This document shows positions 2,977 to 42,754 of a DNA stretch of 45,399 nucleotides, piece after piece; positions within the stretch are counted from its first letter, which is position 1; each line of letters starts with the position of its first letter. The notes under the pieces are model-generated. The model was given only the letters and a program-made list of their open reading frames with translations, was not told the origin of the DNA and did no database searches. The translations under genes were made by a program, and so were the position numbers. Source of the stretch: a virus; IMG/VR virus record IMGVR_UViG_3300033148_003863, positions 1-45,399 of that record. One strand, 5' to 3'.

Positions 2977-3816
2977 ATGAATGAACCCGGCTTTAACACT
3001 ATGTTAGTCGGTGCGACAGGGTCAGGGAAGACCTATTCGCTTCGCACCTTACTCGATGCAGGCCTTGAGGTCTTCATTCTCGCAACCGAACCCGGTATCG
3101 CCAGCACTCTCGGTGACACTGACACTTCAAAAATGCACTGGCATTACGTTGCTCCGGCAGCTCCAGGCCTTCAATCCCTCATGGAATCCGCAAAGAAAGT
3201 GAATACTATGGGAATGGATATGTTGTCGAAACTGAAAGACATCAATAAGTCTAAGTACAGTCAGTTCCTCGATGTCCTTTCCACTCTCGCAAACTTCACC
3301 GACGACCGTACAGGTCAATCCTACGGTTCCGTGGAGGATTGGGGTACTGACCGTGTTATTATAGTCGACTCCCTATCCGGCTTGAACATCATGGCAATGG
3401 ATTTAGTCGTCGGCGCAAAGCCTGTTAAATCTATGAGTGACTGGGGCATTTCAATGGATAATCTCGAACGCCTAATTATGATGCTCTGTACCGGCGTCAG
3501 GGCTTCCTTTGTCCTCACAACCCATCTCGAACGGGAGCAGGATGAAGTATCTGGTGCTATTCAGTTAATGGCTTCAACCCTTGGGAAGAAACTTGCACCA
3601 CGTTTACCACGCTTTTTCGACGATGTTGTACAGGCAAAGCGTACCGGCACGGAGTTCAGCTGGTCAACCGCCACACTGAACGTCGACCTAAAGGCACGCA
3701 ACCTTCCCATTTCCGAAAAACTAACACCATCCTTTAAGCCAATCGTTACGTCTTGGTTATCTAAGGGAGGTGCTATCCAACCAACCACCGTTAAAAAGGA
3801 GGAGCCCAAACCGTAA
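2977..3816 (+). CDS. Sak4-type RecA-like ATPase / ssDNA annealing recombinase (279 aa)
   Basis: RecA-fold ATPase of the phage AAA_24/Sak4 group. The Walker A motif GATGSGKT is at residues 12-19 and the Walker B motif RVIIVDS at about 126-132. The sequence following Walker A (FILATEPG) and the downstream LTTHLE segment fit this group. Sak4 proteins are short Rad51-like recombinases that anneal single-stranded DNA and work with a phage SSB; an SSB-like gene follows immediately, which supports the call. GGAGG upstream (2961-2967) supplies the ribosome site. Confidence 0.8.
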   Translation: MNEPGFNTMLVGATGSGKTYSLRTLLDAGLEVFILATEPGIASTLGDTDTSKMHWHYVAPAAPGLQSLMESAKKVNTMGMDMLSKLKDINKSKYSQFLDVLSTLANFTDDRTGQSYGSVEDWGTDRVIIVDSLSGLNIMAMDLVVGAKPVKSMSDWGISMDNLERLIMMLCTGVRASFVLTTHLEREQDEVSGAIQLMASTLGKKLAPRLPRFFDDVVQAKRTGTEFSWSTATLNVDLKARNLPISEKLTPSFKPIVTSWLSKGGAIQPTTVKKEEPKP

Positions 3817-3831
3817 CATAAACCGTAACAT
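3809..3831 (+). repeat. Direct repeat of AACCGTAACAT in spacer
   Basis: AACCGTAACAT occurs twice in tandem (with a one-base spacer), overlapping the stop of the Sak4-type gene. Further TTTAACCG and GAAACA runs follow before the Shine-Dalgarno of the SSB-like gene. It belongs to the GTAAC spacer-repeat class seen elsewhere in the rightward unit. Confidence 0.5.
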
Positions 3832-3863
3832 TAACTTTAACCGAAACAAAATGAGGTAATACA

Positions 3864-4300: not shown

Positions 4301-4597
4301 ATGTCAGATGAAAAGGATTCGGGGGGCGAAAGCCCTCCTTTCCCTTCAAGCCTAAATGAAATACTGGAAAGTGAATTTAACTATTCTACTTTCAATTGGT
4401 CTCCGTTACCGTCACAGAAAAAGTACTGGATAATTAATACCATTCTGTTTCGCTTACAACGACCGGGACGAGTGATACTAATCGTTCCAACACGAAAGGC
4501 TAAAGAAGAAATCAAACGATTAATTGAAACACGCTTAGGAGCACAACCTATGTTTTTACGCTATCATATTCTTGAGGAGGATATAAATGAAAGTTGA
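4301..4597 (+). CDS. Hypothetical protein (98 aa)
   Basis: Not recognised. It has an acidic, serine/proline-rich N-terminus, then a segment GRVILIVPTRKAKEEIKRLIE (about 56-76) that recalls the strand and helix around motif Ia of helicases ('VPTR'). No Walker A is present and the protein is too short to be a helicase. It overlaps the next start by 11 bases. Confidence 0.6.
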   Translation: MSDEKDSGGESPPFPSSLNEILESEFNYSTFNWSPLPSQKKYWIINTILFRLQRPGRVILIVPTRKAKEEIKRLIETRLGAQPMFLRYHILEEDINES

Positions 4598-5870
4598 AAC
4601 CCTCCCTATTCACACCATTACCATTCCTGAAAACAGACATCGAGGTGAATTTGATGAAAAGAAAATTGAAGAACTTATGGATTCCATTCTTGCTGTTGGT
4701 AACCTTCATCCCCCCGTCCTTCGTAATTCTGAAGACACCCTCCTCGCTGGTGAACGTCGTCTTAGAGCGATCTCCCTTATCAGTGAACGCGGTCTATCTT
4801 ACTTCTGCGCTGGGGTTACCGTCAGTCCAGGCCACGTTGCTATTCTACGAGCAAAAGAACTCTCAGACATTGAACTGCGCGAAGCTGAACTTGAAGAAAA
4901 CCTACGTCGGGTAGACCTATCATGGCAGGAACGGGAACGGGCTATCGCTGACTTACACAACCTTCGAACAGAACAGACAAATGGAAAACAAACCTTTCGT
5001 GACACGGCTACGGAACTTCTTGGCCGTGAGCCTAATCGGGCTGAGCCTACTATCATGGTGCGTAATGCTGGGATTATCGCTCAGCATCTGGATGATCCTG
5101 ATGTACTTAAGGCGAAAAATTCTAAGGAAGCAATGAAGATTATTACGAAGAAAGCAGAACGGAAACTGCGGGAATTGCTAGCGGAACAGTACGGTTCGGA
5201 AAGTGTTAGTGAAAAGCATTGTCTCGAAAACATTGATGCTATTACTGGCATGAAAGCCCTAGACGATGCCTTAATTGATGTCGTATTAAGTGACCCCCCG
5301 TACGGGATCGAGGCACAAAACTTCGGTGACCAAGCTGAGGGCGATCACTTATACGATGATTCATATGAAACCTGGATCGACCTAATGAAAGCCTTCGCCA
5401 ACGAATCTTTCCGTATTACAAAGGATCAGGCACACGCTTACATTTTCTGTGACCCTCGCCGTTTTAATGAACTGAGCGAAATCTTTTACCAAGCCGGATG
5501 GAACGTCTGGAACACCCCTATTATCTGGGACAAGAGCAATGGAATGTTACCACGCCCAGACCATGGTCCTCGGAGGACATATGAAACTATCCTATATGCG
5601 ATTAAGGGGGAGAAAACTACCACTGCGGTTTACAATGACGTTATTCGGTTTGCGGCTGAAAGTGACCGTCAACACGCGGCACAGAAACCAGTGGGATTAT
5701 ACGTCAACTTATTGCGTAGGTCGACAATGCCTGGAGACAAAATTATTGACCCTTTCGCTGGAAGTGGTACGATCTTCCCGGCAGCCTTAGAAGTAAACTG
5801 TTTCGCTTTCGGCTTTGAACTTGACCCAGCATCATATGCTATCGCCCTTGGGAGAATGGAAGATGATTGA
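4587..5870 (+). CDS. ParB-like domain fused to DNA methyltransferase (427 aa)
   Basis: The N-terminal part (about 1-125) has ParB/Srx-fold signatures: HTITIPENRHR, then LLAGERRLRAI (about 52-62) and ENLRRVDLSWQERERAIADL (about 104-123). The C-terminal part is a DNA amino-methyltransferase with DPPYG (236-240) preceding FAGSGT (390-395). That order marks the beta class, which methylates exocyclic amino groups (N6-adenine or N4-cytosine); DPPY favours adenine but does not prove it. Likely role: modifying phage DNA to evade host restriction, with the ParB-like domain giving target choice or nuclease/NTPase activity. GGAGG sits ahead of ATG 4587, and the gene overlaps both neighbours. Confidence 0.85.
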   Translation: MKVETLPIHTITIPENRHRGEFDEKKIEELMDSILAVGNLHPPVLRNSEDTLLAGERRLRAISLISERGLSYFCAGVTVSPGHVAILRAKELSDIELREAELEENLRRVDLSWQERERAIADLHNLRTEQTNGKQTFRDTATELLGREPNRAEPTIMVRNAGIIAQHLDDPDVLKAKNSKEAMKIITKKAERKLRELLAEQYGSESVSEKHCLENIDAITGMKALDDALIDVVLSDPPYGIEAQNFGDQAEGDHLYDDSYETWIDLMKAFANESFRITKDQAHAYIFCDPRRFNELSEIFYQAGWNVWNTPIIWDKSNGMLPRPDHGPRRTYETILYAIKGEKTTTAVYNDVIRFAAESDRQHAAQKPVGLYVNLLRRSTMPGDKIIDPFAGSGTIFPAALEVNCFAFGFELDPASYAIALGRMEDD

Positions 5871-6562: not shown

Positions 6563-6876
6563 AAATAAAAAGGATTAAGAAATTAAGAGTTAATTGTTAT
6601 ATTTTTAAAGTAGTTTGGGATTCAGAATTAAACGGTGCAAGTTTTAATTATATTGAAAAGATTATTATAATAGGTACAAAACAAAATAACATGATACTAT
6701 CTAATATTTTACATGAACTTATGGAAATAGTAACAATTGAAATGGGTGTTCGTTTAAGTAGACCTGACTGTGATTGTGATCACATCTTTGTATACGATCA
6801 TAGACAACACACTACAATGATGGAAATGTTATCAGGATTACTGCTTCAGTTTACTAATGAGGAAACTGAAGCATGA
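6559..6876 (+). CDS. Hypothetical protein with HELMEI motif (105 aa)
   Basis: The segment ILHELMEIVTIEMG (about 46-59) looks like a zinc-binding helix of the HExxE type, and a later HTTMMEML helix could complete a small metal site. It resembles short phage 'HELxE' proteins of unknown function rather than true HExxH peptidases, so enzymatic activity is uncertain. Codon use is more AT-rich than the neighbours. It overlaps both neighbouring genes by four bases (ATGA). Confidence 0.6.
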   Translation: MKIKRIKKLRVNCYIFKVVWDSELNGASFNYIEKIIIIGTKQNNMILSNILHELMEIVTIEMGVRLSRPDCDCDHIFVYDHRQHTTMMEMLSGLLLQFTNEETEA

Positions 6877-8612
6877 AAGGTAAAGGCCCGATCAACGCAA
6901 AGATAATGATAATAGGCGAGCAACCCTCCATCCGTGACCTTCGTTCCGGTGAGCCTTTCGGTGGCGGTTCAGGTCAAGAATTCCACCGTATGCTTCATGA
7001 CGCTGATATCCTCGCTACCGAATGTTACATGACCTATTTCGTAAAGGATCGCAGTGCCGGTACTGTTGACAAAATGTTTGCCCGGACTAAAACGGAAAGC
7101 AAAACACTTGGCCTATCAGTGTTTAATAAAAAGTACCCGAAACCGGAGGTGTTAGTACACCTCAAAACCCTGTGGGAGGAAATCGCTTCCATCAAACCAA
7201 ACCTCATCATTACCCTCGGAGAGCATGCACTATGGGCGGTGACTGGAAACAGTGGCATAACAAAATGGCGGGGATCAATACTGGCCGGTATTCCTTTTGG
7301 TATCCCAGGTCCGTTTACTGTAAAGGTTATACCTACATATGCTCCCGGAAAGGTACAGGCAAAGTGGGACTGGCGCTGGATTGCAGTACAAGATCTTCGC
7401 CGGGCTAAACGAGAATCTCTATTCCCCGGTATCGACTACCCGGACTATCAATTCATTGTTCGGCCTAGTTTTAATGCTGTAATGAATTGGATTAATTGTC
7501 GGTTACAAATCATGCAGACACGCCCGGAGATGCGTTCTGACGGGGCATCTCCCGTTCGGGGATGGTGTAATGACGGGTACAAACTGTCCGTCGACATCGA
7601 AACGAGATGCGGTCATATTGCATGTATCGGCTTCGCTGACTCACACTTAGAAGCATTATGTGTTCCTTTAATGTGTACGGAGAATGAAAATGGATACTGG
7701 ACTATTGAGGAAGAAATCGCTATCGTTATCGCTATCCGAGAACTGCTTACCCACCCAAATACCTGCGTATTTGGTCAGAACTTCTTATATGATTGCCAAT
7801 ACATTGCGAAATCCTGGGGATTTATACCTAATGTCAAGCACGATACAATGTATGAACACCACGTTGCTTTTGCAGGACTGCAGAAAGGGCTTGATTTCCT
7901 TTCCTCTATTTACTGCGACTTCCACCAGTACTGGAAAGACGAAGGAAAGGAATGGAACCCTCTGATACCGGAAGATCAGTACTGGGTGTATAACTGTAAA
8001 GACGCTGTTACCACATATGAGTGTAATGATGCAATTCAAGCTACTATCGAAGCTCTCGGACTGGAACAGCCTCGCCGTATGCAGATGCGCCTCTTTCTCC
8101 CGGTGCTTCGAATGATGCTTCGTGGAATTCGTATTGATGAAAAGATTAAGGCCGCCTTCGGGATGGAATTATTAGAGGCTCGTGCTGAACGGGAACAGTG
8201 GCTATGGGATGTTGGTGAAGGTATTGTACCTATACCGAAATCGAAGACAGCTAAGTCTTGGTTTAACAGTCCGAAACAACTCGGCACCTTTCTGTATGAT
8301 GTTCTTGGTCTCCCGGAACAAATGAAGCATAAAAAGGGACAGAAATCTTCCCGGACTACTGAGGATGCAGCCTTACAAAAACTGCGCAAACGGGAACCTG
8401 CACTTCGTCAATTTTTCGACACGATCGCTGAACTCCGTTCCATTGGGGTATTCTTCAGCACATTCGTAAATGCACGACTTGATCACGACAAACACATACG
8501 TTGTTCTTTTAACATAGCAGGTACCGAAACCTTCCGTTTCAGTAGTTCATCTGACGCTTTTGGTTACGGGACAAACCTACAAAACATACCTAAGGGGAAT
8601 GAAGATGAGTAG
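6873..8612 (+). CDS. UDG-like domain + 3'-5' exonuclease + N-terminal part of DNA polymerase A (579 aa)
   Basis: Residues about 1-175 match the family 4/5/6 uracil-DNA-glycosylase fold: IIGEQPS (13-19) and EPFGGGSG (27-34), LIITLGEHALWAVTG, and RGSI. In the final UDG motif, TYAP replaces the usual 'HPS', so activity is doubtful. A DnaQ-like proofreading exonuclease follows: VDIET (about 239-243), NFLYD (about 303-307) and YNCKDAV (about 371-377). The polymerase palm begins with ETFRFSSSSD and NLQNIPKG (about 550-574), then the frame stops. Motifs A, B and C are absent here and are encoded at 9457-10248. Overlaps of 4 and 8 bases with its neighbours make it part of one operon. The true polymerase is therefore probably a two-chain enzyme. 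Confidence 0.85.
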   Translation: MKGKGPINAKIMIIGEQPSIRDLRSGEPFGGGSGQEFHRMLHDADILATECYMTYFVKDRSAGTVDKMFARTKTESKTLGLSVFNKKYPKPEVLVHLKTLWEEIASIKPNLIITLGEHALWAVTGNSGITKWRGSILAGIPFGIPGPFTVKVIPTYAPGKVQAKWDWRWIAVQDLRRAKRESLFPGIDYPDYQFIVRPSFNAVMNWINCRLQIMQTRPEMRSDGASPVRGWCNDGYKLSVDIETRCGHIACIGFADSHLEALCVPLMCTENENGYWTIEEEIAIVIAIRELLTHPNTCVFGQNFLYDCQYIAKSWGFIPNVKHDTMYEHHVAFAGLQKGLDFLSSIYCDFHQYWKDEGKEWNPLIPEDQYWVYNCKDAVTTYECNDAIQATIEALGLEQPRRMQMRLFLPVLRMMLRGIRIDEKIKAAFGMELLEARAEREQWLWDVGEGIVPIPKSKTAKSWFNSPKQLGTFLYDVLGLPEQMKHKKGQKSSRTTEDAALQKLRKREPALRQFFDTIAELRSIGVFFSTFVNARLDHDKHIRCSFNIAGTETFRFSSSSDAFGYGTNLQNIPKGNEDE

Positions 8613-8874
8613 TATGCTTCCAATAAAGATAGTAGAAGGTAGTTTAGCTCCACGATATGAAGAGACTGTAACCGAATTAAAAAACATTAAAGCAGTAATA
8701 ACCCGACACGGCATGGCAAGCGGTTTACCTTTAGTCGATCTTCAATTTACTGATGAAGAAGGAAAAGAATATTTCACTATGATTAGTAGCAATTTAATTA
8801 GTATGCTTGCCGGTGCTGTTGCTGGTGTTATACAACGTTCGAATGATGAGGAAAATAATAATGGCACACACTGA
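8605..8874 (+). CDS. Small phage protein inserted in the polymerase locus (89 aa)
   Basis: Conserved-looking small protein whose middle (GLPLVDLQFTDEEGKEYF, about 38-55) forms a strand pair, followed by a hydrophobic helix (SMLAGAVAGVIQ). Function unknown. I choose ATG 8605 because AAGGGG lies seven bases upstream; that Shine-Dalgarno overlaps the last codons of the upstream polymerase fragment. The coding frame overlaps the fragment's stop by eight bases and the methyltransferase start by 14. It is the first of two genes that separate the two parts of the polymerase. Confidence 0.65.
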   Translation: MSSMLPIKIVEGSLAPRYEETVTELKNIKAVITRHGMASGLPLVDLQFTDEEGKEYFTMISSNLISMLAGAVAGVIQRSNDEENNNGTH

Positions 8875-9457
8875 ACTATTAATCGGCTGCGGAAGTAACC
8901 GTGCGAAGCGTATTAAAACCTATGACAGCGAAGAATGGTCAGCTGTTGTTACACTTGATTCTAATCCCGATCATAATCCTCATATTGTACACGATCTGCG
9001 TAACCATCCTCTACCGTTTCAAGATAATACTTTCAGTGAAATTCATGCATACGAAGTTCTCGAACACCTCGCGGTACAGGGCGATTATGAATTTCTTTTT
9101 GCTGAGTTTACTGAATACCACCGACTGCTAAAGCCTAACGGTTTATTCATTGCAACCGTACCAGCTCCTACTAGTGAATGGGCTTGGGGTGATCCTAGCC
9201 ATACCCGTGTTTTTCATCCGAACTGGCTTGGTTTTCTATCGCAAGAAAACTATAAACGAGAGGTAGGGAAGACGACAATGTCTGATTTCCGTTACTTATA
9301 TAAGGCCAATTTTGAGGTCGAATATGCAGCTATTGAGGAAGATGTTTTTCTATTCGTACTGAAAGCGGTTAAAGAAAAGAATATAAAAGATAAATCGTCA
9401 GTTTCAGTACTTGATGATATTAATGATAATGCAGAACATGGATCGACACTCCGGTAA
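8861..9457 (+). CDS. Class I SAM-dependent methyltransferase inside the polymerase locus (198 aa)
   Basis: Rossmann-type methyltransferase. The SAM-binding loop is LLIGCGSN (about 5-12), the acidic strand end is VTLDSNP (about 29-35), motif LPFQDNTFSEIHAYEVLEHL (about 50-69) is typical of the Methyltransf_11 group, and LLKPNGLFIATVP (about 88-100) is the next strand. GDPSHTRVFHP recalls methyltransferases that occur in phages. The substrate is unknown (sugar, protein or small molecule). The start ATG at 8861 has GAGGAAA about six bases upstream. Its TAA stop shares a base with the ATG of the polymerase C-terminal part (TAATG). Confidence 0.8.
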   Translation: MAHTELLIGCGSNRAKRIKTYDSEEWSAVVTLDSNPDHNPHIVHDLRNHPLPFQDNTFSEIHAYEVLEHLAVQGDYEFLFAEFTEYHRLLKPNGLFIATVPAPTSEWAWGDPSHTRVFHPNWLGFLSQENYKREVGKTTMSDFRYLYKANFEVEYAAIEEDVFLFVLKAVKEKNIKDKSSVSVLDDINDNAEHGSTLR

Positions 9458-10248
9458 TGGTAGCTAAAACTATGTCCTTACCTAACGTAAGGAAACTGTT
9501 TGTACCTGATCCTGGTTACGTTATGTGTGACGTTGACCTTGACCGTGCCGATCTTCAGGTGGTAGTATGGGAGGCCGATGATGCCGACCTAAAGCGGCAA
9601 CTCCATCTCGGTGTCGATCTTCACATTATGAACGGGATACTACTAGAACAACAAGAGCCACCACCTGAAGATGAACTAGTCGAGTCCCACCCGAACTACC
9701 CGGAGCATAAGGTACGATACAAAAAAGCAAGGGTATTCGCCAAGGCTTTTGTTCACGGTACTAACTATGGCGGCAAAGCTCGCACCATGTCTATCGCCGC
9801 TGGTACTACAGTAAGACAAATGGAAATTATGCAACACCGCTGGTTTCAAATCCATCCCGGTATCCGTGAGTGGCACACCCGAACCCAACACCAACTGGAG
9901 ACACGCCGCTATGTTGAAAACGCCTTCGGCTACCGCCGATTCTACTTCGACCGAATTGAACACTTACTTCCAGAAGCGCTTGCTTGGATACCTCAATCAA
10001 CAGTGGCCGTTATTATCAACCAAGGACTGGCTAACCTTGATGAGAATATACCGGAGGTTGAGCTTCTAATCCAAGTCCATGACAGCCTCGTATTCCAATT
10101 TCAGAAACGTTACTACCCTTACCTCCTCCCGAAAATCCGTGACCAACTCCTAATCCCTGTACCATATGAAGATGAACTGATAATTCCTGTCGGTGCTCAA
10201 ATGAGCGAAAAATCCTGGGGTGACTGTAAACCAGTACCCTGGGAATAA
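9457..10248 (+). CDS. DNA polymerase A, C-terminal catalytic part (263 aa)
   Basis: Carries the three catalytic motifs of family A polymerases: motif A DVDLDRADLQ (about 25-34), motif B RVFAKAFVHGTNYGG (about 92-106) and motif C IQVHDSLVF (about 205-213). In motif C the second acidic residue of HDE is serine, a form I recall from other phage polymerases. The product starts just ahead of 'SLPNVRKLFVPDPGY', so together with 6873-8612 it makes a complete polymerase of about 840 residues. ATG 9457 overlaps the methyltransferase stop (TAATG) and has no good Shine-Dalgarno, so translation is probably coupled. The in-frame sequence upstream back to 9430 could be leftover polymerase code. Confidence 0.85.
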   Translation: MVAKTMSLPNVRKLFVPDPGYVMCDVDLDRADLQVVVWEADDADLKRQLHLGVDLHIMNGILLEQQEPPPEDELVESHPNYPEHKVRYKKARVFAKAFVHGTNYGGKARTMSIAAGTTVRQMEIMQHRWFQIHPGIREWHTRTQHQLETRRYVENAFGYRRFYFDRIEHLLPEALAWIPQSTVAVIINQGLANLDENIPEVELLIQVHDSLVFQFQKRYYPYLLPKIRDQLLIPVPYEDELIIPVGAQMSEKSWGDCKPVPWE

Positions 10249-10249
10249 T

Positions 10250-10278
10250 CCGACCGTTCTATTATTAATTGACCGCCC
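10250..10278. repeat. 29-bp quasi-palindromic element, copy B
   Basis: Lies between the polymerase stop and the next gene. It matches copies at 24478-24506 (23 of 29), 40617-40645 (21 of 29) and, inverted, 38044-38072 (22 of 29). Core CTATT and AATTG form an imperfect inverted repeat, flanked by CCG on the left and GCCC on the right. Confidence 0.65.
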
Positions 10279-10296
10279 ACACAATTAGGAGCCTTT

Positions 10297-10503
10297 ATGC
10301 AATGCCCAGAATGTTTTAGTGCAAAGACCTTTGTATACGACTCACGAAAGAGTGGTGTAACCATACGAAGACGAAGACAGTGTGGAGTCTGCTCCCACCG
10401 TTTCAGTACAATAGAAGTCCTCATTCCCTTGGGAAAAGATATGCGAGAAAAACGAAAACAGAGAACACTAGAAAAAATACAGACATTACTTAACGAATTA
10501 TAA
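10297..10503 (+). CDS. NrdR-like zinc-ribbon protein (68 aa)
   Basis: CPEC (3-6) and CGVC (about 29-32) with an intervening arginine run (RRRRQ) and HRFSTIEV closely follow the zinc-ribbon N-terminus of NrdR transcriptional regulators. The NrdR ATP-cone domain is missing and the rest is a short charged helix. It probably binds DNA. GGAGCC precedes ATG 10297. Its target is unknown. Confidence 0.7.
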
Positions 10504-11964: not shown

Positions 11965-14900
11965 TCATTCATTCAGTTCCCTAATCTCTTCATACAGTTG
12001 CCCATACCGTCTCTGTTTCGGTAGTCGTGCTTCTTCCTTCGCTCTCGCTTTCACTCTCGCTTTCCGTGACCGTACCATATCCTTTCCAGTAATACCACCA
12101 ATAATTTTCGGTACCTGACTATTAAACTTCATCCAGGCTTTCCGTGCCGCCTTCACTGAATCTTTATCTCCATGCGCTACTGACCAATCATAATTCTGCA
12201 TAATCAGTCTCCGTCTTGTTTCCCAGTATTGTGCAGCTTGTTTCTGATTCCAACGAATATCTTTTTCCATTGACAGTCTCGTCGGAGTAAACCCCATTGA
12301 TTGCCCGATCAGTTCTGCTCGGTGCATAGTATTATTAACATCAAATTTTACCGGTACAGCCCCTGTCCGTGACACATCACCCTCCTGTTGCGCATACCGA
12401 TAGGCCTTCGCCGCATTTCGCACAGCAATCGGTAGTGCTCGTTCCCACCGCTTAAATCCGTCAGGATGATTATCCGCAGAGGCCTGCATCAGTGACAGTG
12501 GGATAGAGATAAACGCTCCACCCCAGTCAGTACTGATAGATTGAAAGGCTTGCTGAAAGTCTTGTGTAGCTCCATATGTTGCTAACCCTTCAGTACCTGG
12601 AATCAGTCGCCCCATTGACAGTGACCCTGACAGGTCAAAGCCTTGCCAAGCTGCTGGGTCTTTTGCCGCTGTCAGTTGAGGTATAGCAAAAGTATTCCGT
12701 GATAGGCCGTGCATGATCAGGTCTGGGTTAACATTTAGATCTTTCACAAACCCTTTCATATGCGTCCGTACATCCGCTGTCGGATTATTCCAACCTGCAA
12801 GATGTCCCCACTTACGAAGGGCGAAGTTAGCCAGATTCATCAGATCCTCTGCAAACGGAAGTCCAGATAAACCCCCCAATACAAGCATCATTAACATAAA
12901 TCTCCACCAACCAGGATCACCCCCGAAGGCAAAGAATGCTGTATTCTGCATATACTGCCAGAACAGAAAGACAACAGATTTCTTACCCCGCATAAACTCA
13001 GCACGGTTCCAGATAGCGTATTCATATTGTGTAGATTCAACAGCATCTCGCGCTTTCAGATACGCTGCATTAGGCGACATTCCCTGTTTCCGTGCCAGAC
13101 GAAAGGCGGCAATAGCTACAATTCTTCGATTAACTTTCTCCGCGGTCTGAAACAGATATGCTGCATAAAAACTACTCTGCCGTACAGCACTCGCTCCCTT
13201 TGCACTACCTAGTACTGTCCCCGCCACATACCGTTGCAGTGTCGATCCTTCACTAACTGCTGCAAGTTCAGTAGCTGCTGACTGATCAATAATACCATCA
13301 ACCGTTAGGCGTGACAGTGCTTCCTGCAATTCCGGTTCCAGTATCTCCGGATGTCGAAACATTTGATACGTTCCTTTCATCGCCTTCGTTAGTTCTGCTA
13401 CAGCTGCCGCATCCCCAAACTGTGCCGCCAGATGCGGATAGGCTACAAGCGGTACCTGTGTCAGATTAACTGCTGCACTCTTAACGGAAAAGCCAAGGTA
13501 AAAAATAAACCCAATTGCACGAAGGTTAGCAAATTCATTTCCTGGGTTCATTATATACTCGTAATGCCGAGCAAGATGTTCCTGTATCTGTGTTCGTTTT
13601 GTAGAATCACCCCCTTCATTCTGTATCTGTTGTGCATCTTCCCGTATAGAATCAACAGTATCCTGCATCTGCTCTGCATGTTCTACTCTTGCAATATGAC
13701 CAGAGAAACGCGAGAAATACATAGCATATCCCCGCATAGCATCCATACTGAATCCAGCTGTACCCTTACGGTTCAGTAAGTTCTTAGCGAAACTACGAGA
13801 CGGACTGATCTTATACAGTAACTGATCAAATTGACTAACCGCTGTAGGGTCTTCCCCCAGTACCTGTTTCACCATTCTTACTAACTGTGGAGGCATACCA
13901 TTGAAAGACATATTATCTTCTGTAACCTTTCCTGTCGCTACTGTATAGTGTTTCCCCCACTTTTTCTTTATTTCTTTCCAAGCTTTCTTTGCTTCCTTTG
14001 ATGTTTCAAAAGTTTCAAAGTGGAAAACTTCTCCGGCCTTAATCTGTTTCCCATCAATCTGTGTAGCTTTATCAGCCCTAACCGTTACCGTATACTCACC
14101 GAAACGAGATAATGGAAAATAATCACGATTCTTTAGTTCTTCATATTCCGTAAGTACCCTCTGTTTCTGTGCCTCAAGGGCAACCGGATTATCCGCATAA
14201 GTTTCTTCCACCTTCCGTAACGCCAATCGTTCCATAGCTTCCAGTGACGCCAACATATCAGTTTCAATCTGATCCACTAAAGTAACCATATCATCTGTCA
14301 GTTTAAACTTTTCAGCTAGTTCCAGAAACTCATCCGTTGTCAGTTTCCGTTCCAGTGTGTCCGATTGTGTAGTTCGTTCCAGCAAAAATTGTGACAGTAA
14401 TTCCGCTTCTTTCGCTGACAGTTGCTGCCACTGTTTCAGTGTTTCATCAGCCCGTAGTGTCCAAGCGTTTTTTGTATTAAACCACTGGCGTACCTGTTCC
14501 ACATACTGTTGCAGTTTCTGAATATGCGGGTTCAGTTTCGCCAGCTGTGTCAGTGTCAGACCGATACGTACACCTTTATTATAAGTATCTACTGTTTCCT
14601 TAATTTTCTTATCCGAAGGCATACCATCTTCTGAATCTTCAACCCCTTCCGTAGGCGGTACTGGTGGTGCACCTGTCGCCTCCTTTACCGCAGCAGCAAT
14701 AGCTTTTTTTGTATTTACAGCAAATTCTCGTTGTACTTCCGCATCCGCAACACTAAGTGATTGTGCGGCCTGTTCCCGTATTGTCGAAAGCTCTTTCTGT
14801 CCTGCTGCCTGTTCCACAAACATATCAATCGTTTCAGCAGTCTGCGCTGGCTTAACCCAGTCATTGTACAGTGCCTCAAAAGCTTCCGCAACCTTAGCCC

Positions 14901-22985: not shown

Positions 22986-23828
22986 TTACGTAAAGTAACC
23001 CGTTACACCCTGTACATATGCTGTTCCTGACCCACCTGTTCTAGCCGATTGTAGATTAACCATTACCCATGACCCAGCTGAACCTGATACGGTTAGTGTA
23101 CCTCCAGAAGCAATTGCATAGGAAGACCCTGTTGTACCTGATATAGTTGTTCCGTTAGCTGGCCCGGTTAATCTACAATCTGGTACAGCTGTTCCACCAT
23201 CTCCCTTTTGTATTGCTGCATAATTAAACGTACTAGCGTTTACTGGAATATATAAAGGAACAGAAACTCGAGTAGTCATTACATTTGATGTTGTAGAAAA
23301 TTCTACATTATTCATTTGGGTTTGTGCGACCCCAAGAAGACTCGACCAATCTAAGTCAGTTTCATCTATTTGACTTTGAACCGCAAGTGAACCTAAACCT
23401 AATGTGCTTCGCATTGCTGCTTCAGATGCATCAGCTATTAACGTTCGAGCAAGCGATGTGATCGCGTTTTCTGCCCAAGTATCAGTTCCTGTTGTATATA
23501 ATATTCTATCCCCAACAGTACCTAATGAGGCAATAGAAGCAAGTGTTGCATCATAAGCGTTAAAATCTGTTCCTACTTCAAGATCAAGTAAGGCTCGTAT
23601 TGCTGCATAATTTGCTGCTGCTAATATAGATACAACATTTGCAGTTACTCCATCAAGAGAATTTAATTCAGTATCACTTGCAGTCATTGCTCCACTGATA
23701 TTAGGGAACGATGCTAACAGTACCGCTTTAATTAAACGGTGGTGATTATCGGATTCCGACCGATCCGCCGTACCTTCCGGGTTTGCCTGATTCAGTTCAT
23801 CAATATATGTTGCACTTTCAATAGTCAT
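22986..23828 (-). CDS. Tail fibre/appendage-like structural protein (280 aa)
   Basis: The N-terminal domain (about 1-55) is shared with the gene just downstream, followed by a helical section with repeats (about 60-150: 'ILAAANYAAIRALLDLE', 'FNAYDATLASIASLG', 'TSLARTLIADASEAAMRSTLGLGSLA') typical of phage fibre shafts. A beta-rich end (GTTISGTTGSSYAIASGG) follows. A likely trimeric fibre or tail collar. The start overlaps the stop of the upstream gene, with GGGGAG as ribosome site. Confidence 0.65.
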   Translation of the reverse strand: MTIESATYIDELNQANPEGTADRSESDNHHRLIKAVLLASFPNISGAMTASDTELNSLDGVTANVVSILAAANYAAIRALLDLEVGTDFNAYDATLASIASLGTVGDRILYTTGTDTWAENAITSLARTLIADASEAAMRSTLGLGSLAVQSQIDETDLDWSSLLGVAQTQMNNVEFSTTSNVMTTRVSVPLYIPVNASTFNYAAIQKGDGGTAVPDCRLTGPANGTTISGTTGSSYAIASGGTLTVSGSAGSWVMVNLQSARTGGSGTAYVQGVTGYFT

Positions 23829-24469
23829 TAACTACTCCCCATCCGGCGTAGACGGCCAGCTTCTTCTCTTGCCGTAGTCTCATCGTCCATCCGTTTCCGT
23901 GCTCTTGCAACATCAACAGCATGCTTTGGTTTATTCATCTGTAAGTCGGTAGCAAGGGCTAAAATTGTTTCGGCCATAATAAGATCTGGTGCATATTGCC
24001 CCCAAAGGGTTTCACTACTGTCATTAGCAAAAGCACTAACAGAAGCAAGATAAGGGAACACAAGGGTATACACTGCATCCGGGATAGGCCGGAAGTACAT
24101 GGTTGTTCCCCGTATCGCATACCCTACTGGGAGATCATTACTTTCACTATCAAAGCGACGAATCAGTTCATCATATCCCGCACGAGCCACTTTCTGCCTT
24201 TCACCGTCCGAATCTGTAATCCAAATTGTACCTTCATCACTATCCGCTGAGGCCGCTCTAAGATAATCTGTAGGAAGCGCGATAGTTTCCGTACCGGCTA
24301 CAGTAACAAGCGGTGTACCCGGATCGGCCTTAAACAAAAACCAAGGTAACGCCGGAGCTAGTTCCAACAATTCCTGTTGAAAATTTATTTCCGTCAGTAT
24401 ATTTGTATCCTGATCCGTTCGGTTACCAAGACGTCTTTTAATCGTTGAAATTATGTCTTCACTGTTCAT
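23828..24469 (-). CDS. Head-tail adaptor (tail tubular A-like) protein (213 aa)
   Basis: The N-terminus 'IISTIKRRLGNRTD' and 'INFQQELLELAPALPWFLF', with 'TIALPTDYLRA', and the helical end 'LATDLQMNKPKHAVDVARARKRMDDE', match the pattern of the phage gp11-like adaptor family that links the portal to the tail. The size is right for this family. The copy A repeat element lies just upstream of the start. Confidence 0.65.
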   Translation of the reverse strand: MNSEDIISTIKRRLGNRTDQDTNILTEINFQQELLELAPALPWFLFKADPGTPLVTVAGTETIALPTDYLRAASADSDEGTIWITDSDGERQKVARAGYDELIRRFDSESNDLPVGYAIRGTTMYFRPIPDAVYTLVFPYLASVSAFANDSSETLWGQYAPDLIMAETILALATDLQMNKPKHAVDVARARKRMDDETTAREEAGRLRRMGSS

Positions 24470-24477
24470 GTATTTCT

Positions 24478-24506
24478 CCGGTCGTTCTATTGTTAATAGT
24501 CTGCCC
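24478..24506. repeat. 29-bp quasi-palindromic element, copy A
   Basis: Intergenic between the DUF1353 gene and the adaptor gene, in the leftward unit. Core CTATT-GTT-AATAG is a perfect five-base inverted repeat with a three-base loop, flanked by CCGG and GCCC. It matches copy B at 23 of 29 positions. Confidence 0.65.
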
Positions 24507-24512
24507 GATTAA

Positions 24513-37404: not shown

Positions 37405-37942
37405 CTAATATTTCCGACACAGGTTCACTATCACTATTAGTATCAGTATTCTCCCCAAGGGGTACAACGAGGGCGTCTAGGGCAGGAGGAGCATTCATCA
37501 TCTCCCGTGCTGCCGCTAGTGTACCCGCGTCCGTTTGATGAAAGTGATTAATCTGTGTATTATTAACGGGAGAAGCTGCTGTTTTACCTTCATTCCGCGA
37601 GGGAGCATATCCGAGACGATGCAAAACCTTGTCTGCTACGTCAAGTACAAACTTACCATCAGTGGCATACGGTAACTGTTCCGATAGTTTTTCCACGGCC
37701 TGATCTGCTACGGCCACCATTTTCTGTCGCAATGTTAGGGCGGTGGCATTAAAGCACTCATCCTGCCTTTCCGCTAAGCGTAACTGAAACACATCACTAT
37801 TAATGATAGTGGATAGCCAGGGAATGGTCATATCAAAGTGCATTGAAAGTTCCCGTAGCCGCATCGTCGGGTTCGCTATCATATAGTCCAACAGTAAATC
37901 ATGCCGGTGACTGATCTTTGCGATTTGAGCTGATTGTGCCAT
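37382..37942 (-). CDS. terS: Terminase small subunit (186 aa)
   Basis: The N-terminus contains a helix-turn-helix (MRLRELSMHFDMTIPWLSTIINSDVF, about 27-52), followed by a coiled-coil region (about 60-105) and a disordered acidic tail (TDTNSDSEPVSE), the normal layout of TerS. It recognises the packaging site. No Shine-Dalgarno is visible before ATG 37942, and a possible promoter ends only about ten bases upstream, so the mRNA could be leaderless. First gene of the leftward unit. Confidence 0.8.
   Translation of the reverse strand: MAQSAQIAKISHRHDLLLDYMIANPTMRLRELSMHFDMTIPWLSTIINSDVFQLRLAERQDECFNATALTLRQKMVAVADQAVEKLSEQLPYATDGKFVLDVADKVLHRLGYAPSRNEGKTAASPVNNTQINHFHQTDAGTLAAAREMMNAPPALDALVVPLGENTDTNSDSEPVSEILDAETETD
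37796..37810. repeat. 15-bp inverted repeat copy inside terS
   Basis: ACTAT-TAATG-ATAGT is a five-base inverted repeat that occurs here in the terS coding region and again, identical, at 38050-38064 within the copy E element. The sites are 254 bases apart. Confidence 0.55.
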
Positions 37943-37953
37943 ATTGGGAAGGG

Positions 37954-37982
37954 ACTATAAAGGAAAGGGGTACGGGATGCAA
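37954..37982 (-). promoter_or_regulatory. Possible leftward promoter for terS
   Basis: Read on the minus strand: TTGCAT (37982-37977), a 17-base spacer, then TATAGT (37959-37954). The -35 box is poor, the -10 box good. The start site would be about five bases before the terS ATG, which fits the absence of a Shine-Dalgarno. Low confidence. Confidence 0.35.
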
Positions 37983-38018
37983 CGGGGGGCGGCGGAAACA
38001 TCCTGAAACGGCGGCAGT

Positions 38019-38046
38019 GGGTGAGGCGGGTTACGGGGTGTCTGGG
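38019..38046 (+). other. Potential G-quadruplex motif
   Basis: Four G runs on the plus strand (38019-38021, 38028-38030, 38035-38038, 38044-38046) are separated by loops of six, four and five bases, which meets the usual G3+N1-7 rule. Further G runs lie at 37967-37989. The 29-bp element copy E starts in the last G run. Confidence 0.55.
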
Positions 38047-38072
38047 CGTACTATTAATGATAGTCCGATCGG
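38044..38072. repeat. 29-bp quasi-palindromic element, copy E (inverted orientation)
   Basis: Begins GGGCG and ends CGG; read on the plus strand it equals the reverse complement of copies A, B and C at 22 of 29 positions each. Its centre is the inverted repeat ACTAT-TAATG-ATAGT. Confidence 0.65.
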
Positions 38073-38257
38073 ATAATTCAAAAACCGGCCTACTTATCCA
38101 GGTTGACACTGAGACGGAGACGCTCAAGGTGGCGGGGGGGTCGGCCACTACGGTTTCGGTTTTCGTGCCGGGGTTTCGTTTGCGTAGCGTGCAGGTGGCG
38201 TTCCGTTCCGGTTAACAAATAAACCTAGGAATCATTTACATTTAATGCAATTCGGAC

Positions 38258-38285
38258 TTGACATTTCCCGCCGGTTGTGTATAAT
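38258..38285 (+). promoter_or_regulatory. Strong sigma70-type promoter for the first early gene
   Basis: TTGACA (38258-38263), a 16-base spacer and TATAAT (38280-38285): both boxes are perfect. The spacer contains CGGTTGTG, very similar to the promoter at 40688. It drives the gene at 38353. Confidence 0.8.
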
Positions 38286-38338
38286 TAAATCAGGTATTCG
38301 GATTGGCCGATTACCATTATTAATATGAGGAAACCATC

Positions 38339-38356
38339 ATGGTTAAGATTCAATGA
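38339..38356 (+). other. Five-codon leader ORF ahead of the gene at 38353
   Basis: ATG 38339 has the best ribosome site (GAGGAAA about seven bases upstream), but this frame ends after five codons at TGA 38354-38356, which overlaps the ATG 38353 of the next gene. The following protein lacks the first 35 residues of its paralogue at 40000. This is a translation-coupling leader or the remnant of a deletion with restart. Confidence 0.55.
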
Positions 38357-38739
38357 TACGTCGGCTGGCATTACATGGCCTATCGCAAAAGGCCGGTGAT
38401 TCATACGCCAGCGCGAATGATAAAGGCTGGACAATTGACGATTGCCGGGATAATGTCGCAGATGTTTTCGACCACCTCCGGAACGGTATCTGGTCGACTG
38501 GCGGGGATCGCAGCGGTAATGCGATTATTGTTGAAGCGTTATCCCGATTAACTGGGAACGATACCGAGGCCTGTCGTGAAGTGTATCAGACCATGACAGA
38601 AGATGAACAGAAGGACTTGGCGAAGCGTCCGGATGTGAAGGCAATGGTCGCACAGATTAAGGCTGAAAGGGCACAGGCGCGGGCAGATGGTATGACCGGC
38701 AGTGACGATAGCAGTGATCTGATGGGGTTATTCGGATAG
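38353..38739 (+). CDS. Conserved phage protein, N-terminally truncated paralogue (128 aa)
   Basis: Begins 'IRRLALHGLSQKAGDSYA', identical in pattern to residues 36-53 of the protein at 40000-40488, and shares the later 'EALSRLTGND', 'EDEQKDLAKRPDVKAMVAQIKAER' blocks. The first 35 residues of the family, beta-rich in the paralogue, are missing here. It is a common phage family whose function I do not know; lysine/alanine-rich ends suggest binding to nucleic acid or protein. It is driven by the best promoter in the window and followed by a terminator, so it is probably made in high amounts early. Confidence 0.75.
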   Translation: MIRRLALHGLSQKAGDSYASANDKGWTIDDCRDNVADVFDHLRNGIWSTGGDRSGNAIIVEALSRLTGNDTEACREVYQTMTEDEQKDLAKRPDVKAMVAQIKAERAQARADGMTGSDDSSDLMGLFG

Positions 38740-38771
38740 GATGTATGACGGGCAAGGATGCCCATTTACTG

Positions 38772-38798
38772 TCCCGGTCGTAATGGCCGGGATTTTTT
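38772..38798 (+). terminator. Rho-independent terminator after the first early gene
   Basis: TCCCGG (38772-38777) pairs with CCGGGA (38787-38792) over a nine-base loop, followed directly by TTTTTT (38793-38798). Confidence 0.75.
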
Positions 38799-38800
38799 AC

Positions 38801-38827
38801 AACCACTATCAGTAATCACAACCGCCC
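38801..38827. repeat. Diverged copy D of the 29-bp element
   Basis: On the minus strand it reads GGGCGG, then ATTACTGATAGT, matching copy E except for two extra bases in the left part. Like copy C it lies just after a terminator that follows one of the paralogous genes. Confidence 0.4.
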
Positions 38828-38908
38828 AGGTTTCCATAACAGTAACTGTAAGCGAAACGGTTATGATAGGTGGAACAACCGACGGAAATTGAGTAGCGAG
38901 TATTATCC

Positions 38909-38926
38909 CTCATTATTCTCATTATT
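38909..38926 (+). repeat. Tandem 9-bp direct repeat CTCATTATT
   Basis: Two contiguous identical copies of CTCATTATT inside the left outer-to-inner arm interval, AT-rich. Confidence 0.6.
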
Positions 38927-38978
38927 GTAATTTGTTAGTTCGCGTTTTGACACACCCCCATGCTTCCCTTCGTAAGCG

Positions 38979-39004
38979 TTTTTTTTTTTTTTTTTTTTTT
39001 TTTT
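38979..39004 (+). repeat. 26-base T homopolymer
   Basis: An unbroken run of 26 T (26 A on the minus strand) in an otherwise mixed sequence, between the inner arms of the inverted repeat. The length is unusual for a phage of this size. The count may be imprecise in the assembly. Confidence 0.7.
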
Positions 39005-39147
39005 ACTAAGGTATAAGCTGGACACTCACCGGGGATGGAAGGGTCATTCCGCAAATTAACAAACTACAAATACTAGACAAATCAGGGCATATACGGGATT
39101 ATCCGGGGCAATACGTCATATCCGGTAATATACTCGCTACCCCCCTC

Positions 39148-39176
39148 TTGACTTCACGTTCGGTCTATGTTACCGT
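39148..39176 (+). promoter_or_regulatory. Putative sigma70-type promoter
   Basis: TTGACT (39148-39153), 17-base spacer ending TATGT, then TACCGT (39171-39176). The -10 box is weak, but the spacer keeps the CGGT and TRTGT words of the promoters at 38258 and 40688. Confidence 0.5.
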
Positions 39177-39209
39177 GTCCGTTATCGTTTCACTAATAGG
39201 AGATATTAC

Positions 39210-39440
39210 ATGAAAATATTAGAAACACTTTGGTTTACAGAATTTGGATCAAAAGCACCGATAGGTATTATCCTTGGAAAAGACTCAGTAACGGGAGAAC
39301 CAAAGGCTTATATTGGAACAGGTCTAGGCCACGATCTAGATGCAGATGAACAACTTATTCTCGGACACGGAGCAAAACTTTATCCTGATGCGGTTCACGC
39401 AATCGCTACCTGTTTTGGACTTACCGATGCCACTCAGTAA
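39210..39440 (+). CDS. Small hypothetical early protein (76 aa)
   Basis: No family recognised. A short beta/alpha protein ('WFTEFGSKAPIGIILGKD' followed by 'AYIGTGLGHDLDADEQLI'). AGGAGA lies about nine bases ahead of ATG 39210, just after the promoter at 39148. It overlaps the next gene by 14 bases. Confidence 0.6.
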   Translation: MKILETLWFTEFGSKAPIGIILGKDSVTGEPKAYIGTGLGHDLDADEQLILGHGAKLYPDAVHAIATCFGLTDATQ

Positions 39441-39909
39441 AAGTATCGCTTCATATCCCTATTCATTCTTTGAACTCACCGATACGCTTAGTGAATTACG
39501 TGAGTCGATCTCGCTCACCTTTGTGACACCACTTGAGGCGCGTCAATTTCGGCAGCAATTATACGGTTTCGCTGGGGCACTGGAGAAACTGGGACAGGAA
39601 GGAGATGATACCATGATGGGGAAGGCTCGCGTTATCCGTTCCGTTGAGGTTCGTATGTCAGGATCAGTGCTCACCTTCGTATCCCGTTTCGATTCAGTGT
39701 ACGCGAAGGCAGCTACACGATTAGCGCAGATGATCCGGAATTCAAACTCCGACACAGACACCGATACCGTGACCGATACCGTGCCCGTTACCGATACTAA
39801 AGCGGACACAAACCCTCCGGATGAAATGCAATCCGTATTGGATCAGTTAGGCTACACCACCAGTCCCGTTACCGTCACTGTTGATGATGATACTGAAAAA
39901 AAGAATTGA
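39427..39909 (+). CDS. Hypothetical early protein with Asp/Thr repeat (160 aa)
   Basis: The first 100 residues look folded, with two helices (TDTLSELRES, EARQFRQQLYGFAGALEKL) and strands. The tail contains a repeated S/T-D-T-D-T pattern (about 104-124) encoded by a tandem repeat, then an acidic end. The start ATG 39427 overlaps the previous gene by 14 bases and has a weak ribosome site, so coupling is likely; longer upstream starts in this frame overlap even more and are less likely. Function unknown. Confidence 0.6.
   Translation: MPLSKSIASYPYSFFELTDTLSELRESISLTFVTPLEARQFRQQLYGFAGALEKLGQEGDDTMMGKARVIRSVEVRMSGSVLTFVSRFDSVYAKAATRLAQMIRNSNSDTDTDTVTDTVPVTDTKADTNPPDEMQSVLDQLGYTTSPVTVTVDDDTEKKN
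39760..39783 (+). repeat. Tandem 12-bp coding repeat
   Basis: Two exact copies of ACCGATACCGTG in tandem, encoding a T-D-T-V repeat in the gene at 39427. A third, diverged copy follows. Confidence 0.7.
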
Positions 39910-39934
39910 CAACTCACATTCATTGTGTTTAAAT
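39906..39934 (+). promoter_or_regulatory. Sigma70-type promoter with extended -10
   Basis: TTGACA (39906-39911, overlapping the TGA stop at 39907-39909), 17-base spacer ending TTGTGT, TTAAAT (39929-39934). A TG dinucleotide sits one base ahead of the -10 box. Confidence 0.65.
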
Positions 39935-39999
39935 GTGTTTGAATATTTCACAAACACTTACTGTTACCATTCCGGTAACGCAAATAGAGGAAAATTATT

Positions 40000-40488
40000 A
40001 TGGCGAAGAAAGCTACGAAAAAGGTAACAGAAACCGGGGTTTCAATTGACTTTGAAAACGGTGAAGCACTTGTTGTTGAACTGGAGCAATTGTCCGAAGA
40101 CATTATACGCCGACTTGCCCTTCACGGTATGAGTCAGAAACTTGGTGATTCTTATGCGGGGGCAGAAGCAGATGAAGCTTTCGGCCTCGCAAATGGTGTA
40201 GCGGAACGGCTTGTCGCAGGCGATTGGGCAGCAGTCCGTGCCTCCGGCGGTGGTGTTACTCGCGTTTCCGCCTTAGTGGAAGCCCTGGCCACCGTTACCG
40301 GACAGGAAATTGAAGCCGCCTTAGGCGTCGTGAAAGAAATGTCTGATGATCAGAAAAAGGATTTGAAAAAGCATCCTGCCATTGCTGCAGAGCTTGCCCG
40401 TATCAGTGCTGAAAAGGCAGCCGCGAAAGCAGCTAAGGCCGCGACCGCAGCTGAAGGCGCAGACCTTTCCGCAATCCCAGGCCTCTGA
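40000..40488 (+). CDS. Conserved phage protein, full-length paralogue (162 aa)
   Basis: Paralogue of the gene at 38353 with the additional beta-rich N-terminus (VSIDFENGEALVVELEQL). Shared core 'DIIRRLALHGMSQKLGDSYAG' (about 34-54), 'EALATVTGQ', 'MSDDQKKDLKKHPAIAAELARI', and an alanine/lysine-rich C-terminal helix. Family widespread in phages, function not known. AGAGGAAAA precedes ATG 40000. A terminator follows, so the gene is likely monocistronic and well expressed, as for its paralogue. Confidence 0.75.
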   Translation: MAKKATKKVTETGVSIDFENGEALVVELEQLSEDIIRRLALHGMSQKLGDSYAGAEADEAFGLANGVAERLVAGDWAAVRASGGGVTRVSALVEALATVTGQEIEAALGVVKEMSDDQKKDLKKHPAIAAELARISAEKAAAKAAKAATAAEGADLSAIPGL

Positions 40489-40581
40489 TCCGTTACACTT
40501 ACCGTAACAGAATCCTCGTAGGCGTGTAAAGGTAGTGACGCTCGTATTGGTGTAAAGCCTTGTGTTATGATTAGTGCCATT

Positions 40582-40611
40582 CCTCCCCCTATCCTTTGGG
40601 GGAGGCTTTTT
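40582..40611 (+). terminator. Strong rho-independent terminator
   Basis: CCTCCCCC (40582-40589) and GGGGGAGG (40598-40605) form a perfect eight-base stem with an eight-base loop, followed by CTTTTT. Confidence 0.9.
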
Positions 40612-40616
40612 ATTAA

Positions 40617-40645
40617 CCGGTTGGACTATTACCAATAGACCGCCC
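40617..40645. repeat. 29-bp quasi-palindromic element, copy C
   Basis: CTATT-ACC-AATAG is a perfect five-base inverted repeat, extended by GG and CC arms outside one mismatch; it is flanked by CCGG and GCCC. It matches copies A and B at 21 of 29 positions. Confidence 0.65.
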
Positions 40646-40687
40646 GGACATCACCCACCAGCCTTCCCAAATACTTTCCGTTTACTC

Positions 40688-40716
40688 TTGACATATCCGG
40701 TCGGTTATGTCATAAT
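40688..40716 (+). promoter_or_regulatory. Sigma70-type promoter for the AAA+ gene
   Basis: TTGACA (40688-40693), 17-base spacer with CGGTTATGT, CATAAT (40711-40716) with an upstream TG at the extended -10 position. The spacer closely matches that of the promoter at 38258. Confidence 0.75.
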
Positions 40717-42239: not shown

Positions 42240-42321
42240 CACTCGTTAGTAACTGTAACGGCCAGGGACGGCATTATTAACCCTTTACCACAACAGTAAC
42301 AGTAACAGAGAGGAAATTACA

Positions 42322-42714
42322 ATGGCTAAAGATACACAACGCACAGAAGCTAAGATTTTAGCAAAAATCCTTATAAAGATAAGAGAAACGGAAGAAGATT
42401 CTCCGACACTCCAGATGAAAATGGAGATGTTGCTCAATGAAGCCTGTTTTGCCTGTTTTGCCCACACGGATGAAACCCTTAGTGAAATACTTGGAAAGGA
42501 AGCTGAAGGTAATATGTATGTTTTTGAAGACCGCAGTTCCATCTTCCTTCACCGAAACGGAATAGGTTTACCTAGTCGTATTTCCGAAGAAGAAATGGAC
42601 GATCTCCGAAAAGCCCTCACTGAAAGTCGCGCATACCGGAAAGAACATCCAGAAGATCTTGAAGGTAAAAACTATCTAGACGAAGATAGTCCGACACACG
42701 ATTCCATTCACTAA
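42322..42714 (+). CDS. Hypothetical early protein, paralogue 1 (130 aa)
   Basis: Helical N-terminus, then a strand-rich middle 'EGNMYVFEDRSSIFLHRNG' and a helical end, finishing in -SIH. The protein at 42755 has the same length and a similar middle ('EGLIYFFDDGSCLFYHP') and also ends in -SIH, so the two are diverged duplicates. Function unknown. GAGAGGAAA precedes the start. Confidence 0.6.
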   Translation: MAKDTQRTEAKILAKILIKIRETEEDSPTLQMKMEMLLNEACFACFAHTDETLSEILGKEAEGNMYVFEDRSSIFLHRNGIGLPSRISEEEMDDLRKALTESRAYRKEHPEDLEGKNYLDEDSPTHDSIH

Positions 42715-42754
42715 CACTAACACTAATCGTAACACTGATAAAGAGGAAAGGCTA

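Follow-up and report, generated by a model that had tools for sequence, protein, structure and literature searches.

Genome-specific, evenly spaced palindromes in a group of podovirus-like phages, with a ParB-CTPase/methyltransferase fusion as candidate binding protein

Introduction

We describe a dispersed palindromic DNA element in the IMG/VR virus record IMGVR_UViG_3300033148_003863, a stretch of 45,399 bp that was analysed whole and is here called the window. The wider finding is a set of genome-specific, evenly spaced palindromes across the phage group to which the window belongs. If the candidate binding protein proposed below does bind them, the closest worked example would be KorB of RK2, a ParB-family CTPase clamp that loads at dispersed OB operators and slides to distant promoters (PMC11790492).

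The likeness to KorB and OB would lie in dispersed operators on a small replicon and a ParB-family protein acting at a distance (PMC11790492). Dispersed dyads are present in the window and in many of its relatives; the binding protein is here a candidate proposed from sequence. The systems differ in that OB is 16 bp long whereas the elements described here are 21-31 bp and genome-specific, and in that our candidate carries a methyltransferase. Phages and prophages often encode a ParB-CTPase fold joined to an N6_N4 methyltransferase, and the survey describing these fusions offers only guesses about their roles (PMC12704722). The domain combination given there is that of the protein encoded at 4587-5870 in the window, and no DNA target is reported in the passages of the survey that were searched (PMC12704722). 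A candidate target set is proposed here.

The parS sites of ParB and the sites of Noc are also palindromes present in several copies, and the window fusion has a ParB N-terminal domain and a putative Noc-like DNA-binding region. It should be noted that, in contrast to those systems, no ParA family was found among the window proteins scanned, and no parA beside the parB-like gene. Canonical parS, Noc-binding (NBS) and KorB (OB) sequences have 0 matches in the window, and the sites are spread genome-wide. The conserved inverted repeats of phiC31 and the stoperators of mycobacteriophage L5 bind repressors at numerous places between genes throughout the phage genome, and our elements resemble them in this layout. 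They differ in that no repressor or integrase was recognised here; L5 stoperators are moreover asymmetric and oriented, whereas the elements here are dyads in both orientations.

The element in the window

The original prediction placed four copies of a 29 bp quasi-palindrome at 10250-10278 (+), 24478-24506 (+), 38044-38072 (-) and 40617-40645 (+), with 21-23 of 29 positions identical in every pair and 16 positions invariant. Coordinates and identities are exact. The repeat is as described, but the dyad actually spans 31 bp, and its most symmetric copy is CCGGTTGGACTATTACCAATAGACCGCCCGG (40617-40647). The copies are as follows.

10250-10280, plus strand: dyad copy 1, between the C-terminal polA open reading frame (ORF; ends at 10248) and a small zinc-ribbon gene (10297)
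24478-24508, plus strand: dyad copy 2, within the late operon, 9 bp upstream of the start of the gene at 23828-24469 (minus strand)
38042-38072, minus strand: dyad copy 3, flanked by the divergently oriented terS (minus strand) and the gene at 38353 (plus strand)
40617-40647, plus strand: dyad copy 4, downstream of a terminator (40582-40605) and upstream of a promoter (40688)
37796-37810, no strand assigned: core-only partial copy without arms inside terS, an exact 15-mer of copy 3

When each copy was scored with a matrix built from the other three, it reached 29.9-32.6 bits and only those three scored higher, compared with a best score of 20.3 bits in 50 simulated genomes. The window holds no fifth full copy, the next-best score of the 31 bp matrix being 8 against 34.6-39.4 for the four copies. 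A diverged copy that had been proposed at 38801-38827 could not be supported (best score nearby -7.3). The core noted in terS is the exact 15-mer ACTATTAATGATAGT of 38050-38064 in copy 3 and is not random, since none of 200 shuffles reached its core score, but the GC arms are absent (31 bp score -11.4). The copies had also been described as lying next to promoters, after terminators or between operon parts. This holds for the 40617 copy, which follows a terminator and lies 40 bp before the promoter at 40688. Near the 24478 copy neither a promoter nor a terminator was matched, and the 10250 copy has a single marginal promoter match, ending at 10249.

The element is almost certainly a protein-binding site in DNA. 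Among mismatched dyad pairs, read in the transcription sense at co-directional sites, we counted 51 G-U and 63 A-C pairs. There is thus no G-U excess, which argues for DNA rather than RNA, because an RNA stem would tolerate G-U but not A-C. Neither G-U nor compensatory retention of pairing, as in an RNA hairpin element, was found, and the element has no Rfam match. Compared with shuffled sequences, folding is better for two window copies (z -3.2 and -2.5) and no better for the other two (z +0.4 and +0.8). Of the roles first suggested, an RNA-processing hairpin therefore finds no support. A site for a phage DNA-binding protein does, and the strongest remaining candidate is the ParB-like protein at 4587, one of the DNA-binding proteins that the original prediction had listed.

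Two further kinds of site were considered and rejected. A T7-type promoter does not fit dyads that occur in both orientations and also in convergent gaps. A XerCD dif-like recombination site looks alike, with arms of 11-12 bp around 6 bp, but the centre varies among copies of one genome; it was rejected by reasoning.

Genome-specific dyads in related phages

The window derives from a podovirus-like phage, kin to Fredfastierviridae, in which 119X is classed. It encodes a terminase, portal, major head protein, primase, exonuclease, a Sak4-like protein, a late protein of 1,726 residues and a DNA polymerase in two ORFs. The polymerase region (6873-10248) consists of ORFs 6873-8612 and 9457-10248 with a methyltransferase-like ORF (8807-9457) in between, and the split resembles that in Vibrio phage VS-ABTNL-3. 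This phage, Microcystis phage Mel-JY34 and MW202489 are the closest named phages by protein; Desulfofustis phage LS06-2018-MD01 and the 119X group are more distant. Searches with TerL, with exact proteins and against phage nucleotides gave no close relatives. An alignment of the primase yielded 80 IMG/VR loci, and 32 contigs were read whole or largely.

Conservation in relatives had been put forward as a check on the motif. The sequence of the window element itself is not kept, but the feature, a dispersed dyad, is kept with other sequences. Approximately 20 of 34 relatives carry a dispersed dyad of their own, 21-31 bp long, in 4-9 mostly intergenic copies and with a sequence private to each genome. 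Many of these came from a de novo search of intergenic DNA that was blind to the window sequence, and 13 relatives exceed shuffles of their own intergenic DNA (ten per genome) at z>6. OP947158 has nine strong copies of CTATGTCCCAANTTGGGACATAG, G010 six copies of TACCATTAACTNNNAGTTAATGGTA, G012 seven dyad copies, G029 and G033 eight copies of TGTGTAGGTTAT-N6-ATAACCTACACA, and G034 seven copies of CGGACGCGTTAT-N6-ATAACGCGTCCG, among others. Seeding with the element of a neighbour gave more families, in G018, G019, G031, MW202489 and G024, and these are backed by intergenic enrichment, a criterion outside the search. In their clade the layout is a 12 bp arm, GC-rich outside and AT-rich inside, then 6 variable bases and the mirrored arm.

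Different sequences occupy the same gaps across genomes: the polymerase-primase gap, the one following the major capsid gene, the one upstream of terS and those around the early gene family of 40000. Convergent, divergent and co-directional gaps all contain sites, so the sites are not specifically promoters. Tandem pairs occur in G020 (L142/L143) and G018 (L171/L172), where the outer CCGG arms of some elements also belong to a neighbouring dyad at a distance of 24 bp (for example 18858/18882 in G020 and 5341/5365 in G018).

The window's own motif matched five IMG/VR loci once each, which does not look like a dispersed family. The closest primase relative, L006, has a plausible intergenic copy, CCGGTCGGATTTCTCCGGAATATCCGCCC, at 1241 between polymerase and primase, and a second copy at 12142 within a structural gene. 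With two copies on a partial contig, it is suggestive that these are the window's element. No element was found in 119X, Tiera or EBPR podovirus 3; an apparent family in the last was judged an artefact, as it includes start-codon contexts.

Even spacing of the copies

In the 12 genomes with at least five copies, pooled, the copies are more evenly spaced than uniform random positions (coefficient of variation, p=4e-6; largest gap, p=5e-7) and than random intergenic gaps (p about 1e-10); these p values are optimistic, as the genomes are related and not independent. Successive gaps in OP947158 are 7.8, 7.6, 6.9 and 7.1 kb. The even spacing suggests a whole-genome job rather than the control of a few promoters.

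A candidate binding protein

The protein that binds the dyads is likely phage-encoded. The candidate and its putative DNA-binding domain are given below.

4587-5870, plus strand: ParB-CTPase/helix-turn-helix (HTH)/N6-N4 methyltransferase fusion, candidate binder of the dyads, recognised by Pfam (PF02195 and PF01555), profile matches and an AlphaFold2 (AF2) model
4908-5189, plus strand: putative helical DNA-binding domain of the fusion (residues 108-201), from the Noc alignment and the AF2 model

In brief, the fusion matches PF02195 (E=8.9e-8), and its profile matches structures of Spo0J (1vz0, E=1.6e-19), ParB, Noc including the DNA-binding region (7ng0, E=2.1e-15, profile positions 4-191 aligned) and CcrM. 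The ParB N-terminal domain has the P-motif GxRR and ENxxR, with G55, R58, E104, N105 and R108 invariant in 30 homologues; as GERR and ENxxR, these motifs are invariant or nearly so in the fusion homologues. The AF2 model (predicted local distance difference test score, pLDDT, 89) has helices at 113-130, 137-145, 152-165 and 179-201. Together with the Noc alignment, these helices predict a central HTH DNA-binding domain like that of ParB and Noc, with the HTH falling roughly at residues 137-165 (helices at approximately 137-145 and 152-165). The Pfam HTH_ParB profile (PF17762) reached only 0.04, in one homologue, and among the matches listed a structure search recovered only the methyltransferase half. 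Residues 141-160 are the least conserved stretch outside the N-terminus.

Homologues of six window proteins occur in each of the 21 element-bearing genomes examined: the two polymerase ORFs, the primase, the exonuclease, the Sak4-like protein and the fusion. A recognised site-binding domain is seen in none of the six but the fusion, and none but the fusion is missing from 119X, Tiera and EBPR podovirus 3, three genomes that yielded no element. The fusion is thus our best guess at the binding protein. Its gene is close to the primase in every examined contig that covers the region, 69 of 81; in the remaining 12 the contig end cuts this region off. No other sequence-specific regulator was recognised in the window, save a bare NrdR zinc ribbon. 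The latter is a 68-residue protein (10297-10503) that corresponds to the NrdR N-terminal zinc ribbon (PF22811, 2.8e-14) and in which the Pfam scan detected no further domain.

Several observations weigh against this assignment. Mantel tests of element similarity against protein similarity picked out no single binder. Over all genomes every core protein correlates with element similarity (rho 0.64 for the primase, 0.62 for the fusion), so that element similarity tracks general phage relatedness. In a clade of ten genomes the partial correlation for the fusion is 0.50 (p=0.007), about the same as for TerS (0.51) and polC (0.46), and it is lower (0.25, p=0.06) when only the DNA-binding domain of the fusion is taken. 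Gene-content correlation gives little contrast, as the fusion is nearly universal. The fusion is present in PP438425, G002, G030, G035, G037 and G040 with no element detected, and the fusion-negative contrast comes from three genomes only. The dyads are longer than OB, and no element lies beside the fusion gene itself. Taking both sides of this circumstantial record, we tentatively consider it quite possible that the fusion is the binder, and more so than any other candidate, with each palindrome serving as its parS- or OB-like loading site.

Alternative explanations

The main rival to the fusion is another phage regulator of unrecognised type, for which the dyads would be operators, like the phiC31 inverted repeats or L5 stoperators, that keep transcription shut off genome-wide when the phage is dormant or at an early stage. 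Such operators classically take the form of dispersed intergenic dyads. The early proteins 345, 38353, 40000 and 43192, together with TerS, are present in 20 of 21 element-bearing genomes, and their functions are unassigned or could include DNA binding. The related phage Shea shows episomal persistence and superinfection resistance with no known repressor gene (PMC13348215). On the other hand, no integrase or repressor family was recognised among the window proteins scanned, although divergent repressors could be missed, no plasmid relatives were found, and only two metagenome-assembled genome contigs among bacterial genomes are related, one of them at phage-genome size. Based on these three observations, a classical integrated prophage is unlikely. 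Control of promoters, moreover, needs neither even spacing nor sites in convergent gaps. We regard such a regulator as possible, though rather unlikely.

It is improbable that the dyads serve replication or packaging and are recognised by primase, polymerase or TerS, for example as multiple priming or pac-like sites. In favour of this reading, every element-bearing genome has primase and polymerase, and element similarity runs parallel to theirs; TerS also correlates inside the clade, a core copy lies within terS and copy 3 lies upstream of it. However, 119X, Tiera or EBPR podovirus 3 have the same proteins but no detected element, and 4-9 evenly spaced sites are ill-suited to one pac site.

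It is still less probable that the dyads bind a host protein and differ because hosts differ. The hosts of named relatives are diverse (Microcystis, Vibrio), and so are the elements, but element similarity follows phage phylogeny and the window has no canonical site for ParB, Noc or KorB. RNA hairpins acting in processing, stability or termination, or chance repeats, are hardly credible, given the pairing and folding results above and leave-one-out scores that exclude chance.

Other repeats and early genes

The early proteins encoded at 38353-38739 and 40000-40488 have alike C-terminal halves and are probably paralogues; their family occurs in 20 of 21 element-bearing relatives. A run of about 27 T (38978-39005) lies in an early intergenic region, with an imperfect inverted repeat on its flanks (38925 and 39041). 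A second dispersed motif consists of GTAAC units about 6 nt apart, in runs that lie in gaps between early plus-strand genes, often right upstream of start codons. In the dyad search these runs exceeded shuffles (z 6.6).

552-583: GTAAC-unit run
3815-3853: GTAAC-unit run
38831-38866: GTAAC-unit run
39954-39985: GTAAC-unit run
40490-40520: GTAAC-unit run
42285-42320: GTAAC-unit run
42707-42750: GTAAC-unit run

An unrelated human-gut phage, L178 (NatCom_18656), which has a ParB/methyltransferase-like protein, carries dyads of the type TGTGTCCTA-N4-TAGGACACA in four intergenic places. As a lone example, it could simply be the operator of an ordinary repressor.

855, 35207, 42999 and 46352 in L178, intergenic: dyads

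Proposed mechanism and implications

Returning to the ParB-CTPase/methyltransferase fusion, we suggest that the copies may be double-stranded DNA sites bound by a dimeric protein that the phage encodes. As the sequence preferred by this protein drifts from phage to phage, the copies within a genome would all change together. The ParB part would close as a clamp at a palindrome, slide off and cover several kilobases. The sliding clamp could carry the methyltransferase along the phage genome, or silence the genome in the manner of KorB. The even spacing would fit delivery of methylation to the entire phage genome, and the episomal carrier state reported for the relative Shea (PMC13348215) would fit genome-wide silencing. 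The full scheme, in which dimers load at private palindromes, slide genome-wide and either mark replicating DNA (against restriction or as a mark of state) or silence it, while recognition helix and palindromes co-evolve, is speculative and, taken as a whole, doubtful.

For the ParB-CTPase/methyltransferase fusions, which are frequent in phages, the dyads provide candidate targets in approximately 20 genomes, each with a matched protein, and thereby open binding, clamp loading and methylation to direct testing. A large group of environmental podovirus-like phages keeps rapidly diverging palindromes that a search for one conserved sequence would miss.

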